Below, piece by piece: positions 8,402 to 15,466 of a DNA stretch of 44,419 nt. The translations under genes were made by a program, and so were the position numbers. How positions within the stretch are numbered: position 1 is the stretch's first letter; each line of letters begins with the position of its first letter. Under the pieces are notes generated by a model. That model had not been told where the DNA came from. It saw nothing but the letters and a program-made list of their open reading frames with translations, and ran no database searches. The stretch comes from an uncultured Pelagibacteraceae bacterium (lineage in GTDB: Bacteria; Pseudomonadota; Alphaproteobacteria; Pelagibacterales; Pelagibacteraceae): NCBI GenBank assembly GCA_902576395.1, contig CACGVB010000001.1, positions 1 through 44,419 of the forward strand. Reading direction: 5' to 3'.

Positions 8402-9443
8402 ATGAAATCAAAAAAAAGCTCTTATATTTGGTATCACGGGACAAGATGGATCCTATTTAGCTGAATTCTTATTAAAGAAAAATTATATAATACACGGTGT
8501 AAAACGAAGATCTTCAAGTGCTAATACAGAGAGAATTGACCATATATTTGATAGTATAAACTTTAAAAGTAAAAATTTATTTATTCACTATGGAGATGTA
8601 ACAGACAGTTCTAGCACTTTAAGTTTAATTAATAAAATTAGACCAGATGAGATATATAATTTAGCTGCTCAAAGTCACGTAAGAGTGTCGTTTGATATTC
8701 CAGAATATACAGCTAATTCAACAGCTTTAGGATCTCTCAGGATCTTAGAAGCAATAAAAAATTTGAAATTAAGAAAAACGAAATATTACCAAGCATCGAG
8801 TTCAGAAATGTTTGGAAAACAAAATAAAGGTATTTCTCAAAATGAGAAAACTCCATTTCATCCAATGTCAATTTATGGAGTTTCAAAAGTCTTTTCATAC
8901 TACACGACTATTTATTATCGTGAAGCTTTTGGAATTTTTGCATGTAATGGGATCTTATTTAACCACGAGTCGCCTCGTAGAGGTCCAACATTTGTTACAA
9001 AAAAAATAGTTCAAGGTTTGGTTAGAATAAAGCAAAATAAACAATTATCACTTACCCTCGGAAACTTATATGCAGTAAGAGATTGGGGTCATGCAAAGGA
9101 TTACGTTGAAAGCATGTGGAAAATTCTACAATATAAAAAACCAGATGATTGGGTAATTGCGACAAATGAAGAACTGACGGTAAAAGAATTTATTAATAGA
9201 TGTGCTAAAAAACTGGATATTAAATTAATTTGGAAAAATAAAGGAATTAACGAAATAGGAATCGACAAAAATACAAATAAAATAATTATAAAAATTGACA
9301 AAAAGTACTTTAGACCAGGTGAAGTAGATTTTTTGAAAGGTAATTATTCAAAGGCAAAAAAACTTTTAAAATGGAGACCTAAATATAAATCGAGTAGTTT
9401 AATTGATGATATGATTAAATATGAATTAGATTTATATGAATAA
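8402..9443 (+). CDS. gmd: GDP-mannose 4,6-dehydratase, reading frame broken by +1 at an A8 tract near the start codon
   Basis: Frame-0 reading from about 8412 gives KALIFGITGQDGSYLAEFLLKKNYIIHGVKRRSSSANTERIDH...NLAAQSHVRVSFDIPEYTA...; ATG AAA TCA at 8402 is in another frame; the ORF track starts only at GTG 8685. Confidence 0.9.
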
Positions 9444-10635
9444 ATATTTTTATCCTTTAATAGAAAATCCATACTCAAATAGTGATATAAGAAAGGGTAT
9501 AAATGTACTTAAATCAAAACAACTAACATTATCAAATGAAACGAAGAAATTTGAAAAAAATTTTACCACAAAACTAAAGTCAAAATATTCATTAATGGTA
9601 AATTCTGGGTCTTCTGCAAATTTATTAGCACTTCAATGTTTAATAAACCCATACAGAAAAAAGAAACTAAAAAAAGGTGATGAAATAATAATTCCAACTT
9701 TGTGCTGGTCAACATCTTTATGGCCAATTATTCAGTCGAATTTAAAACCTGTTTTTGTAGATGTAAACTCAGAAACCTTAAATATTGATGAGGCACAAAT
9801 TAAAAATAAAATAAATAAAAAAACTAAAGCTATTTTACTAGTTCATGTACTTGGAAATTCTTGTGATATGGATCAAATAATGAAAATTAAAAAAAAATAT
9901 AATCTTATTTTGATTGAAGATACTTGTGAGTCATTGGGTAGTAAGTATAAAAATAAATATTTAGGTACTTTTGGGGAATTTTCATCTTTTTCATTTTATT
10001 CATCTCATCAAATTTCTTCTGGAGAAGGTGGTATGATATGTTGTAAGGACAAAACAGATTATAATATAATCAAATCATTGAGATCTCATGGTTGGTCAAG
10101 AGGCACAACATTTGAAAATAAAATTTACAATAAAAATCCACATTTAGATAAAAGATTTATTTTTTTTAATTCAGGTTATAATCTTAGACCAACTGAAGTT
10201 GCTGCAACAGTAGGAAATAACCAATTTAAAAGAATAGACTCATTAATTAGAATGAGAAATATAAATAGAAAAAAAATTATAAATAAACTTTTAAGCAATA
10301 AAATTTTAAAAAATAAGATTGATTTTTATAAAGAAAATAAATTTGTTACCCCATCATGGTTTGGTCTATCTGTAAAGATACTTGAAACAAAAAAAAATAT
10401 AAAAAAAACTTTGGTTAAAAAACTAGAGAAAAATGGAATTGAGACAAGACCAATAATTAGTGGAAATTTTACAAAGCAACCAGCTACTATCAAGTACGGT
10501 CTTTCAAAAAGAAAAAAATATCCAAATACAGATCTTATATATAATAAAAGTTTTTTTATTGGATTACCGACGAAAAAAATTAGTAATAATTATTTAACAA
10601 AAATATCTTTAGCTTTTGAAAAATCATTTAAGTAA
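9436..10635 (+). CDS. PLP-dependent sugar 3-dehydratase of the DegT/DnrJ family (ColD/RfbH-like, His in place of catalytic Lys)
   Basis: FVDVNSETLNIDEAQI, LIEDTCESLGSKYKNKYLGTFGEFSSFSFYSSHQISSGEGGM; His aligns with the usual Schiff-base Lys. Confidence 0.85.
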   Translation: MNKYFYPLIENPYSNSDIRKGINVLKSKQLTLSNETKKFEKNFTTKLKSKYSLMVNSGSSANLLALQCLINPYRKKKLKKGDEIIIPTLCWSTSLWPIIQSNLKPVFVDVNSETLNIDEAQIKNKINKKTKAILLVHVLGNSCDMDQIMKIKKKYNLILIEDTCESLGSKYKNKYLGTFGEFSSFSFYSSHQISSGEGGMICCKDKTDYNIIKSLRSHGWSRGTTFENKIYNKNPHLDKRFIFFNSGYNLRPTEVAATVGNNQFKRIDSLIRMRNINRKKIINKLLSNKILKNKIDFYKENKFVTPSWFGLSVKILETKKNIKKTLVKKLEKNGIETRPIISGNFTKQPATIKYGLSKRKKYPNTDLIYNKSFFIGLPTKKISNNYLTKISLAFEKSFK

Positions 10636-11458
10636 TAAAATAATAGTAGGTTATATTGGTAATAACAGTTTTTTAGCAAAAAAATTTTACAAACAATATA
10701 AAAATAGAATAATATTTAAAGCATACCTTGATGACATCGCAAAACATAATAAATTTAAAAATTGGTTAATCAAAAATAAGGATATAAATATTTTAATAAA
10801 CTTTGCTGCAATTTCATCTGTGAAAAAGTGTGAGAATAATAAAGCAAAAGCATTAAAAATTAATTGTAAGTCTGTTATCAATATACTTAATGTTCTTAAT
10901 AAATTAAAAATGCCTAATTTTGAATATTTTTTAGCAATTTCATCAAGCCATGTTTTTAAAAAATCCTCTTTAAAATTAAAGGAAAATTCTGAAAAAAGAC
11001 CAAATAATTATTATGGTTTTTCGAAACTATCAATGGAAAAATTTATTCTAAAAAACTATAAAAAATTTTTTTTTAAAATTGGTATAGCGCGTATCTTTAA
11101 TTATTATAACAAGAATTCCAAAAATAATTTTTTTATAAATGATGTTATAAATAAATTTAAAAAAAAAGATAAAATAATTAAGTTTACAAATATTAATGCT
11201 TATAGAGACTATATTTCTGTAAAAGATATTAATACAGCCTTGTTTGAAATGATTAATCAAAAATTAGTAGGCGATTATAATATTTGCTCTGGTAAGAAGA
11301 TTTATTTGTCTGATATTGTAAAAAAAATTCACAAAAAGAATAATAAAAAAAAAGTAGCTATTATTAATAAAGGTTATGGAGACTTAATTGGTTCAAATAG
11401 TAAATTAAGAAGAAAAGGATGGAAAATAAGTAATTTTAATATTTTAAATGAGCTTTAA
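10616..11458 (+). CDS. NAD(P)-dependent sugar epimerase/reductase (SDR, RmlD/ColC-like)
   Basis: YIGNNSFLAKKF Rossmann start, INFAAISSVKKCE, YYGFSKLSMEKFI (YxxxK). Confidence 0.7.
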   Translation: MKNHLSNKIIVGYIGNNSFLAKKFYKQYKNRIIFKAYLDDIAKHNKFKNWLIKNKDINILINFAAISSVKKCENNKAKALKINCKSVINILNVLNKLKMPNFEYFLAISSSHVFKKSSLKLKENSEKRPNNYYGFSKLSMEKFILKNYKKFFFKIGIARIFNYYNKNSKNNFFINDVINKFKKKDKIIKFTNINAYRDYISVKDINTALFEMINQKLVGDYNICSGKKIYLSDIVKKIHKKNNKKKVAIINKGYGDLIGSNSKLRRKGWKISNFNILNEL

Positions 11459-12461
11459 ACAAAAAAAAATTATTGTTATTGATAATTCAGATTTATCTTA
11501 CACTGGTGATGATATAAATGGTAAAATAGTAAGAGGTACGGAAACCTCTTTAATTTTACTTTCAGAACAATTTATACGGATGGGGATAAGTGTTGATTAT
11601 TGTAACTCTACAAGATTAAGTAAAGAAGTTAATGGTGTAAATTATTTTAATAAAAATAATATAACTAAAAACAAGTTATATGACCTTGCTATAGTTATTT
11701 CAGATGCTAATGAATTTAAACGTGTTAATTCTTTAAAAAAAGCTGTTTTCTCAAATAGTAATCAACCTTTAGAAAAATTTATAAGAAAAAAACAACTAAT
11801 TCCATTTATTAAGTATAAGCCAACATTGATAACATTATGTGATTATCAATATCAAAAAAGATCATTTCTTACATCATTTTATGGAAAAAAAACTATTCCA
11901 ATAACTGTTGACCCCAAATTTTTAAATATTGATATTGATGAAAATCATATAGCTGAAAAAAAAGTTGTTTATAATATACGATCAAATAGAAATTTAGATA
12001 AATTAATTAATATTTGGTGTGAAAAAATATTTCCATACAACAATGAATTTCAACTTTATATAACTCCAGATTTACTGGAATATAATGATAAACTTAAAAA
12101 AAAAAATATATTTTTAAGATCTATTGGAAGTAGACAGGATATGATTAATGAATTGAAAACATATCGTGCTCTTACCTACCTTGGACATAAATCTGATATT
12201 TTTACACTTACAGCAGAAGAAGCTATTAAATTATGTTTGCCTGTTATTACCTTTGGAATAGGCTCATTAAAAGAGAGGGTAAAGCACATGGAAACAGGCT
12301 ATATAGCAAAAAATGACCAGGATTTTGCTAATTTTACAATTAAACTTCTCAATGATGATGAGTTTTACTTAGATATGAAAAGGAATATGAAAAAAAAACG
12401 TAAGGATAATAATTGGGAGACTATTGCTGATGAATGGATAAAATATTTTTTCAATGAGTAA
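11448..12461 (+). CDS. Glycosyltransferase (GT4-like)
   Basis: VRGTETSLILLSEQFIRMGISVDYC; C-terminal LTAEEAIKLCLPVITFGIGSLKERVKHMETGYIAKNDQDFANFTIKLLND. Confidence 0.75.
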   Translation: MSFKQKKIIVIDNSDLSYTGDDINGKIVRGTETSLILLSEQFIRMGISVDYCNSTRLSKEVNGVNYFNKNNITKNKLYDLAIVISDANEFKRVNSLKKAVFSNSNQPLEKFIRKKQLIPFIKYKPTLITLCDYQYQKRSFLTSFYGKKTIPITVDPKFLNIDIDENHIAEKKVVYNIRSNRNLDKLINIWCEKIFPYNNEFQLYITPDLLEYNDKLKKKNIFLRSIGSRQDMINELKTYRALTYLGHKSDIFTLTAEEAIKLCLPVITFGIGSLKERVKHMETGYIAKNDQDFANFTIKLLNDDEFYLDMKRNMKKKRKDNNWETIADEWIKYFFNE

Positions 12462-13497
12462 GATTTTGATTTTGAAAAATGACAGAGTAGGGGATCTTTT
12501 CCATTCAATAAAAGGTATTTTATCAATCATTGAAATTAATAAACATAAAAGTAATTGTAATATCGAGATTGTTTTGTCTAATTTTTCGAAAGAAATGGAT
12601 TTTTTGTTTAAAGCAAATAATGTTAAGACAAGTGTATTGAATTATAACCTTAACCTTTTTGATAAATTTAATATAATTAAAAAAATACTTAAAAATAAAT
12701 ATGATAAAATTTATATTCTATCTCCCAAAAACATTTATTTTTACCTACCTCTTATCACAAAATCTAAATTTTATGCAATTACAGTAAAAGATTTTAAAAG
12801 AGATAGACCTTATGATTTTTTAAAAAAAAAATTATACAAATATTATGTTAACGATAGAACAAATAAAAAACTAGGCGATAGTATTTCAAACCTTGTAGAA
12901 AAACTTTGTTATGAAGACTCTCTACAAATCCCAGTATTTCCTAATATTTGTAACAGTGTTATTTCAAATTCTCTGAAAAAAAATATTAATTTATTAAAAA
13001 AAGATTTTATTTATGTTCATTATAAACATTCCTTATTTAGTAAAAATGGTTGGACCTTGGAATCGTTTTTTGATTTATTAAATAAAATTTTAAATAAGAG
13101 AATATATAATACCGACAAAAATTATTTTTATCCAAAAATACTCCTTAGCTCTGATATTGGAAATTATGATTACAATAAATATTTTCTTGAAAAATTTTCT
13201 TTTATTAATTTTGATACTGAGAAATGTAAATTTTTGGACTCAAATATTACATATCTACATAACATTAAGATTAGTGATTTATTTAAAATTATTGCTCATG
13301 CGAGCCATGTAATCTCACCTCATGGAACAATGACTGTTATGGCAAGCTATTTAAATATAAACGTTATAGATATTTATGACGTAACAATTTCAAAAAACTC
13401 ATTTCGTGAATTTAAACCTCAAAATAATAATTATAACTTTCTTATATTAAAAAATAGCAGTGATCAGATAAAAGATAAAATTATTAATTTCCTATAA
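12454..13497 (+). CDS. Glycosyltransferase family 9-like
   Basis: KILILKNDRVGDLFHSIKGILSIIEINKHKSNCNIEIV; SHVISPHGTMTVMASYLNINVIDIYD. Confidence 0.7.
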   Translation: MSKILILKNDRVGDLFHSIKGILSIIEINKHKSNCNIEIVLSNFSKEMDFLFKANNVKTSVLNYNLNLFDKFNIIKKILKNKYDKIYILSPKNIYFYLPLITKSKFYAITVKDFKRDRPYDFLKKKLYKYYVNDRTNKKLGDSISNLVEKLCYEDSLQIPVFPNICNSVISNSLKKNINLLKKDFIYVHYKHSLFSKNGWTLESFFDLLNKILNKRIYNTDKNYFYPKILLSSDIGNYDYNKYFLEKFSFINFDTEKCKFLDSNITYLHNIKISDLFKIIAHASHVISPHGTMTVMASYLNINVIDIYDVTISKNSFREFKPQNNNYNFLILKNSSDQIKDKIINFL

Positions 13498-14445
13498 CTT
13501 TATTTTGTTTAAAGCATTATTTTTAAATAAATTTGCTTCATTAATATATCTTCTAACCATTTGTGTAGTTTTATGACCAGTCATAGCCATAATATTTCTT
13601 TCTTCTGCTCCAGCTTCAGCGGCTGATGTAGCAAAACCTGATCTTAGACTATGCCCTGCATATTTATTTGAGTCTAATCCTGCCAATGAAGCATATTTTT
13701 TAACGATTAAAGCTACAGATTTATCTGAAATATCAAATATTTTTCTTTTATTTTCTATTGCAAATCCATAAGTCATATAATTTTTTAGAGCTTTTACAGG
13801 ACAATATTTTTCATTATCAAAGTAGGGGATAGCTTTTATAGTTCCTTCTCCAGATTGATCTGTCTTAGATCTTTTAATGACTATTTTGACACCTTCTTGA
13901 ACAAACTCTATATCTTCGTACTCTATATTAACTAATTCCGATCTTCTAAAACCTCCTGCAAAACCTAAAAGTATTAATGCCTTATCTCTCTTGACATCTG
14001 ATGACTTAACTTTCGCTTCTACTAAACCTTTAGCTTTAATTTTTATCTCATTAATCACATTAATAATTAATTTTAACTCATTGATTAATATAGGTTTTTT
14101 AGCAATTTGCCTTGATCCCAAAGTTCTTTTAATGCCATGAAGGTTTTCCATTATTAATGGATGTTTTGTATCTAAATAATGCCCTTTCATCTTATGAATC
14201 ACGCTTATTGAGGCAATTCTTCTCTTTAAGGTGCTAAATTTAGATGATTTAGACAAGTACGTAAGATAAATGGATAGTATTTTAGGCTCTGTGGGCATTG
14301 AAGATAGGCCATTTTTAATACAGAATGCTGAAAAGTCCTTAAAATCAGCCTGATACGCACGTAATGTATTGTGAGCTTTAGAATTCTTTAAGTTTTTTAA
14401 AGTTTCCAATTCAAGGCTTTTAACGTCAGTTATTAAATTATTCAT
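13492..14445 (-). CDS. Tyrosine recombinase / integrase (XerC/D-like)
   Basis: FAGGFRRSELVNIEYEDI, KRSKTDQSGEG, HSLRSGFATSAAEAG, TGHKTTQMVRRYI: the R-K-HxxR-H-Y catalytic set is present. Confidence 0.95.
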   Translation of the reverse strand: MNNLITDVKSLELETLKNLKNSKAHNTLRAYQADFKDFSAFCIKNGLSSMPTEPKILSIYLTYLSKSSKFSTLKRRIASISVIHKMKGHYLDTKHPLIMENLHGIKRTLGSRQIAKKPILINELKLIINVINEIKIKAKGLVEAKVKSSDVKRDKALILLGFAGGFRRSELVNIEYEDIEFVQEGVKIVIKRSKTDQSGEGTIKAIPYFDNEKYCPVKALKNYMTYGFAIENKRKIFDISDKSVALIVKKYASLAGLDSNKYAGHSLRSGFATSAAEAGAEERNIMAMTGHKTTQMVRRYINEANLFKNNALNKIKL

Positions 14446-14450
14446 ATTTT

Positions 14451-14477
14451 TTTCCGATAACCATTAATTATCGGAAA
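14451..14477. repeat. Perfect inverted repeat TTTCCGATAA-CCATTAA-TTATCGGAAA (dif/att-core-like)
   Basis: Direct reading; 10-bp arms, 7-bp spacer, 5 bp upstream of the recombinase ATG. Confidence 0.9.
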
Positions 14478-14528
14478 CTATAATATAACACATTTTACAA
14501 GTCAAGCATTTAATGTAAAAGAACCTCA

Positions 14529-15251: not shown

Positions 15252-15466
15252 CTACTCTATCTGATATTGTCTAAAATGAATTAAGAGGCAACTCTTAACT
15301 GACCATCTGGGGAAAAACCGAGAGGTTCAAGCCCAGAGGGCAGAAAGCCTTGCAGAGTAGCGCTAAAATTGTAAGGTGGAGGGCATGGCGGTAGCGCATA
15401 CAACGACGTGCCAAAAACTACTGTTCTTTGTACCTGAAAAGGTGCAAGGAAACAGGGTTTTTTCTT
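15252..15466 (+). ncRNA. Candidate structured RNA (multi-helix, GNRA tetraloops) ending in an intrinsic terminator; class not recognised
   Basis: Locally G+C-rich; CTACTCT/AGAGTAG closing helix; TTAAGAG-GCAA-CTCTTAA; CTGGG..AACC-GAGA-GGTT..CCCAG; AGGGC-AGAAA-GCCTT; GCGCTA/TAGCGC; final GAAA-capped terminator. Confidence 0.7.
15421..15466 (+). terminator. Rho-independent terminator / possible attenuator immediately upstream of ogt
   Basis: CTGTTCTTTGTACCT-GAAA-AGGTGCAAGG(A)AACAG stem (about 15 bp, GAAA loop) followed by GGTTTTTTC. Confidence 0.85.

Follow-up and report, generated by a model that had tools for sequence, protein, structure and literature searches.

The Xer systems closest to the locus reported here use either two recombinases or one. 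In the XerC/XerD system of most bacteria, which has two, dif has a 6-bp centre, inner arm ends of the form ...ATAA / TTAT... and a unique position at the terminus, together with an FtsK that carries a gamma domain. Streptococci and lactococci have one recombinase, XerS (356 aa), and an imperfect site with an 11-bp centre, difSL, that lies directly beside the gene at the terminus (PMC5357621). XerH (~354–362 aa) of Helicobacter and Campylobacter is also a sole recombinase; difH, whose arms are unequal, lies at the terminus and near the gene in most species (PMC2731167). The Legionellales were a gap in the 2009 survey by Carnoy and Roten that was filled in 2022 by XerL, again a single recombinase overlooked by homology surveys, whose dif site has long, perfect arms of 10–12 bp at the GC-skew maximum and lies >400 kb from xerL in Legionella (PMC9765430). 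The other gap was Pelagibacter, which was said to have no dif/Xer system, having reportedly lost it through genome streamlining (PMC2731167). Neither a later dif prediction restricted to XerCD genomes (PMC3025954) nor a review devoted to single-recombinase systems (PMC5357621) mentions a SAR11 system in its main text. Our literature search, outside which most subscription journals fell, found nothing on SAR11 dimer resolution, and priority is unproven.

Here we describe a palindrome and an adjacent gene that very probably represent the dif site (working name difP) and the recombinase (working name XerP) of a single-recombinase Xer system of the Pelagibacteraceae. Instead of a loss by streamlining, XerCD was apparently swapped for a one-protein system, probably one descended from a mobile-element integrase. 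Like XerS/difSL, this putative system combines one recombinase with a site directly beside its gene at the terminus, but XerP has 317 aa and its site has perfect arms and a 7-bp centre. It shares with XerH/difH the single recombinase and the terminus location near the gene, and XerP matches XerH weakly in fold; the arms of difH are unlike those of the SAR11 site. Long, perfect arms at the GC-skew maximum are a likeness to Legionella dif, yet the SAR11 site stands in the leader of its recombinase gene. The inner arm ends, the gamma domain of FtsK and the unique terminus site are also those of XerC/XerD-dif, but XerP is a single protein that scores far under both the XerC and XerD cut-offs and sits on a separate long branch.

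The window, that is, the whole stretch of 44,419 nucleotides that was analyzed, comes from a SAR11 bacterium (Pelagibacteraceae); the features of its recombinase locus are collected in Table 1.

Table 1. Features of the recombinase locus in the window, and viral contigs that carry the same arms together with a recombinase
Feature	Position	Strand	Remarks
XerP, Xer-like tyrosine recombinase, 317 aa	13492–14445	−	Phage_integrase match; below all Xer equivalog cut-offs
difP, putative dif site, type A	14451–14477	−	TTTCCGATAA-TTAATGG-TTATCGGAAA on gene strand
difP arms	14451–14460 and 14468–14477		
difP spacer	14461–14467		
Invariant 17-bp core	14456–14472	−	GATAATTAATGGTTATC; common to 113 orthologous leaders
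Predicted sigma-70 promoter of recombinase	14477–14505	−	TTGACT (14505–14500), 17 bp, TATAGT (14482–14477)
GGAAA in downstream arm	14451–14455	−	Possible ribosome-binding site for ATG at 14445 (inference)
Glycan-synthesis cluster	8685–13497	+	Dehydratases, aminotransferase, glycosyltransferase
IMES-2 RNA motif	15274–15414	+	RF02035, 164 bits
Viral contigs with own recombinase			L431, L462, L465, L466, L413, L414, L513, L403, L430, L411, L420, L455, L432, L407

The 27-bp palindrome, TTTCCGATAA-CCATTAA-TTATCGGAAA, has arms that are complementary at 10 of 10 positions around a 7-bp spacer, and it ends 5 bp before the ATG of the recombinase gene, exactly as the original prediction had described. 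The span first assigned to it, 14446–14480, encloses a real site but carries 3–5 surplus bases on either side; the true limits are those in Table 1. The location is intergenic and noncoding. No further match with up to three mismatches occurs in the window, and none arose in 100 shuffles. The whole-genome search that had been proposed returned a single copy, the palindrome being the sole exact match in the 1.11-Mb assembly with spacers of 4–10 allowed, and one copy per genome was likewise observed in 20 of 20 genomes (≤3 mismatches). The last base of the −10 box of the predicted recombinase promoter is the outer base of the palindrome, and TTGAC and TATA boxes are kept upstream of the recombinase across orthologous leaders.

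No terminator-like site was detected near the palindrome, in agreement with the earlier view that it is not a terminator, and a terminator reading was dropped. A LexA/SOS or other regulon operator was dropped as well, since one copy per genome implies that there is no shared regulon. No known RNA element was found at the palindrome, the window containing only IMES-2 and tRNAs. The IMES-2 motif lies ~0.8 kb from the dif site, as it does at <1 kb in 12 of 20 related loci. An ogt frame at 15376 overlaps this motif, so that the true ogt start is probably further on.

Orthologous loci were drawn from related genomes and GTDB contigs, with some loci sharing one genome; every relative that the public records name belongs to the Pelagibacteraceae or Pelagibacterales (SAR11). 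Absence of the site beside orthologous recombinases would have refuted the dif-like reading. When this test was run, the palindrome was present in the leader of 144 of the 150 loci holding the orthologous gene, and the remaining 6 are loci where the retrieved sequence stops within the gene or its leader; the reading was thus not refuted. The core GATAATTAATGGTTATC accounts for 113 of the 144 leaders and GATAATTAATTGTTATC, with the spacer TTAATTG, for 25, leaving 6 with other cores. Judged from these leaders, the conservation of the palindrome is far beyond chance.

The sites fall into two types. Type A, TTCCGATAA-TTAATGG-TTATCGGAA, occurs at 108 loci, and type B, TTACTAayGATAA-TTAATtG-TTATCaaTAGTAAT, at 33 loci plus 3 close variants. 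Across 103 distinct type A leaders, 25 bp are near-invariant and both flanks drift, the promoter boxes excepted. The outer arms of type B are altered in mirror fashion on both sides, as would be expected if a single protein binds both arms. Type A and type B proteins are set apart mostly by residues at positions 239–242, beside a four-residue insertion in type B, and alignment with XerD places these positions at the start of a helix. In both XerD and Cre, the corresponding helix recognizes bases in the DNA. XerP would be a small recombinase that comes in two natural specificities, the arms changing with the protein.

In all nine genomes tested, 0.6–3.7 kb separate the site from the maximum of the cumulative GC skew. 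In the single-contig genome G012 (1,343,202 bp, of which 1,300,000 bases entered the skew analysis), the GC-skew peak falls at 615,773, the site at 617,610 and the T-A skew extremum at 620,846. For eight further genomes, skew was computed over 40–80 kb on either side of the site, and its sign flips across the site in all eight. The promoter-side genes of G085 and G087 are wholly unlike those of the other six compared, yet the skew peak is still at the site; thus, the site tracks the terminus rather than one fixed neighborhood. The nine genomes are mutually related, so these tests are not fully independent. For SAR11, the ocean's most abundant bacteria, difP gives an exact terminus marker. A survey of 6–8-mer strand skew in G012 for a KOPS-type motif yielded G-rich candidates such as GAGTAGG, with 51 leading-strand copies versus 8, and nothing decisive. 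On its other side, the recombinase gene is reached by the glycan-synthesis cluster, whose last frame shares 6 bp with the 3′ end of the recombinase gene, so that a variable island adjoins the terminus.

The catalytic residues R168, K194, H265, R268, H291 and Y300 are complete in XerP and near-invariant in its orthologues. The protein scores 59.5 and 68.7 bits against the XerC (TIGR02224) and XerD (TIGR02225) models, whose cut-offs of 335 and 330 are not reached, 68.4 bits against XerS (NF003462, cut-off 267) and 68.1 bits against archaeal XerA (NF040815, cut-off 220). In a phylogenetic tree, a long, supported branch divides XerP from the Xer proteins of E. coli and of a sister family; the phage rows are long-branched, which makes their join to the SAR11 clade unsure. 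The best fold match of the predicted structure is Cre and the next XerH (13–16% structural identity). This structure model is moderate (pLDDT 75, pTM 0.63, poor at ~269–280) and was used for fold only.

XerP was found in 9 of 9 Pelagibacteraceae genera sampled, in 11 of 11 single-contig genomes listed and in 99 of 113 genomes that are at least 90% complete; the 14 without a match may reflect assembly gaps. It is the sole conserved tyrosine recombinase of the family, extra phage-like integrases being sporadic (G028, G036 and G087). Canonical XerC and XerD had no match in any Pelagibacteraceae genome examined. The sister family has two Xer proteins, which score ~250 and ~320 bits against the XerD model, and no XerP. 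A degenerate search for canonical dif gave no convincing site in Pelagibacteraceae and too few matches in the sister family to conclude. A sequence resembling canonical dif, ATTCGCATAATATATATTATGACAAAT, does lie at G039:C2:75856-75882 in this sister family, which retains XerC/XerD. FtsK_gamma was detected in 10 of 10 closed Pelagibacteraceae genomes examined, and no match to it was found in the source genome itself, which is 75% complete. Outside the family, a close XerP orthologue (E 6e-144) occurs at G575:C46:216-1169 (locus L375), in a genome of another family in the class; it stands close to the beginning of a contig with a late number and may represent contamination or transfer.

In G098, which we take to be Ca. 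P. ubique HTCC1062, the recombinase gene lies at 997,875–998,828. Gene order and a single XerD-like match in this genome indicate that SAR11_1019 is most likely the XerP gene. On arrays, this Ca. P. ubique “xerD” was up ~8-fold and recA ~7-fold under sulfur limitation (PMC5069961), and xerD has been reported together with recA in light (PMC3090418). Induction alongside recA fits a role at times when recombination, and hence dimers, rise.

A role in dimer resolution is inferred from the terminus position of the site, its uniqueness, the gene content of the family and the conservation of the palindrome. Recombination between sister chromosomes would yield a dimer bearing two dif copies at the terminus, and FtsK would collect both copies at the septum. 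Four copies of XerP would occupy the four arms, and strand exchange across the asymmetric 7-bp spacer would restore two monomers. Binding, cleavage, resolution itself and the dependence on FtsK are all inferred in this scheme, which is very well supported; the sequence evidence for dimer resolution is very strong, and there are no bench data. Autorepression is inferred as well. The palindrome spans the end of the predicted −10 box and the transcription start, so a bound recombinase should repress its own gene. That bound XerP would probably do so is a plausible proposal whose only basis is this promoter overlap, without repression data.

It is useful to weigh dimer resolution against other functions that such a palindrome could serve. 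It might be an operator only, bound by a dimeric repressor (XerP or another regulator) with no recombination taking place there. Its overlap with the predicted promoter and transcription start is what such an operator would show, and a like arrangement is found ahead of related viral recombinases. However, this leaves unexplained the position at the skew maximum, the conserved asymmetric spacer and the loss of XerC/XerD, as well as the copies in phages that have no recombinase and no promoter. Furthermore, the operator of a regulon should recur, whereas the palindrome is present once per genome. We regard a purely regulatory site as very improbable. The presence of a single copy at the terminus in every closed genome, across nine genera, also argues against XerP serving an integrated phage or island as integrase, with the palindrome as the attachment core. 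The nearest relatives of XerP outside the family are indeed scattered integrase-like proteins, and the glycan-synthesis cluster adjoins the gene, but no second site bounds an element, no phage genes surround the palindrome, and vertical inheritance across the family tells against a mobile state. As a description of the present locus this is hardly credible; as the evolutionary origin of the system, a mobile-element integrase with its attachment site may well be correct.

Finally, XerP could flip DNA between two such sites as an invertible switch, given that invertases of the FimB/FimE type are among its weak relatives. Two sites are not available, since there is one copy per genome at ≤3 mismatches, and across the loci listed the promoter keeps both its upstream place and its orientation. 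We give inversion practically no chance, and the suggestion in the original prediction of an invertible site is unsupported by the single copy in each genome checked. Its comparison with Xer dif sites, by contrast, is borne out by the terminus position, by XerP being the sole conserved tyrosine recombinase and by copies of the site in phages.

These phage copies are numerous. At least 120 viral stretches of IMG/VR contain the type A arms around a 7-bp spacer of any sequence, and 52 contain those of type B, compared with 4 matches for a scrambled palindrome of equal composition. The genes around the viral site match those of pelagiphage HTVC106P. A TerL start is present in 98 viral loci, and in 97 of these the site lies 319–1170 bp upstream of it (median 491 bp). 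Within 60 bp of 17 of 27 type B viral sites there is also a type A-like site (≥15/18), a score that shuffled flanks did not approach (≤13). HTVC035P, whose host is HTCC1062, has a type A and a type B site, each 17/18, and HTVC106P and HTVC100P both have sites of 17 and 15 (of 18). Greip has a perfect type B site with a 6-bp spacer, HTVC024P reaches 16, and HTVC010P is marginal (15 versus 14 in shuffles). No site was found in HTVC028P or in a Methylophilales phage taken as a control. Viral imitations of dif without a recombinase, often as a type A/B tandem before the terminase, are seen at L310–L337, L376–L530, L531 (HTVC106P) and L532 (HTVC035P).

The known parallel is that of integrative mobile elements exploiting Xer (IMEX), such as the CTX and VGJ phages of Vibrio and LME-1 of Legionella, which have a dif-like site whose centre differs from that of the host. 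As in IMEX, no integrase was recognized in the two pelagiphages inspected: none is annotated in HTVC106P or HTVC035P, and none emerged from a domain scan of their larger uncharacterized proteins, which are a subset of the proteins. Unlike IMEX, the pelagiphages are tailed and often have two site types side by side ahead of the terminase, and their integration has not been observed. The spacers usual in viral type A sites follow the pattern TTAA-NN-G, and the exact host core CGATAATTAATGGTTATCG, with the TTAATGG spacer, had no match in viral contigs. Host flanks gave only short matches to viral contigs; no prophage at dif was seen in the host loci examined, where phage proteins gave weak, scattered matches only.

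On balance, and with considerable reserve, we favor the idea that HTVC010P-like and HTVC106P-like pelagiphages, which abound in the sea, use the single Xer recombinase of the host, through imitations of both dif types with spacers unlike the host's, to integrate at the terminus, or else to circularize or resolve their own genomes. Such use is probable, resting as it does on site sequence and position without bench data, with the circularization of phage DNA, or the resolution of its dimers, standing as an alternative of equal weight to integration. For pelagiphages without a recognized integrase, it would open a way to lysogeny or to a circular genome that can be put to the test. A few host sites have a rare spacer in place of TTAATGG, namely TTAAACG (L084), TTAATAG (L081 and L099) and probably TTAAAGG (L026). 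Since viral sites use TTAAACG and TTAATAG too, these host spacers might be footprints of phage recombination.

Apart from the imitations, 14 viral contigs combine the same arms with a recombinase gene of their own, whose product is 28–38% identical to SAR11 XerP (Table 1). In 13 of these 14, the site lies just upstream of the recombinase frame or at its start, and the spacers are quite different. Conserved arms with free spacers are as predicted for the core site of a recombination reaction. This arrangement suggests that the SAR11 module began as an integrase of this kind together with its own attachment site.
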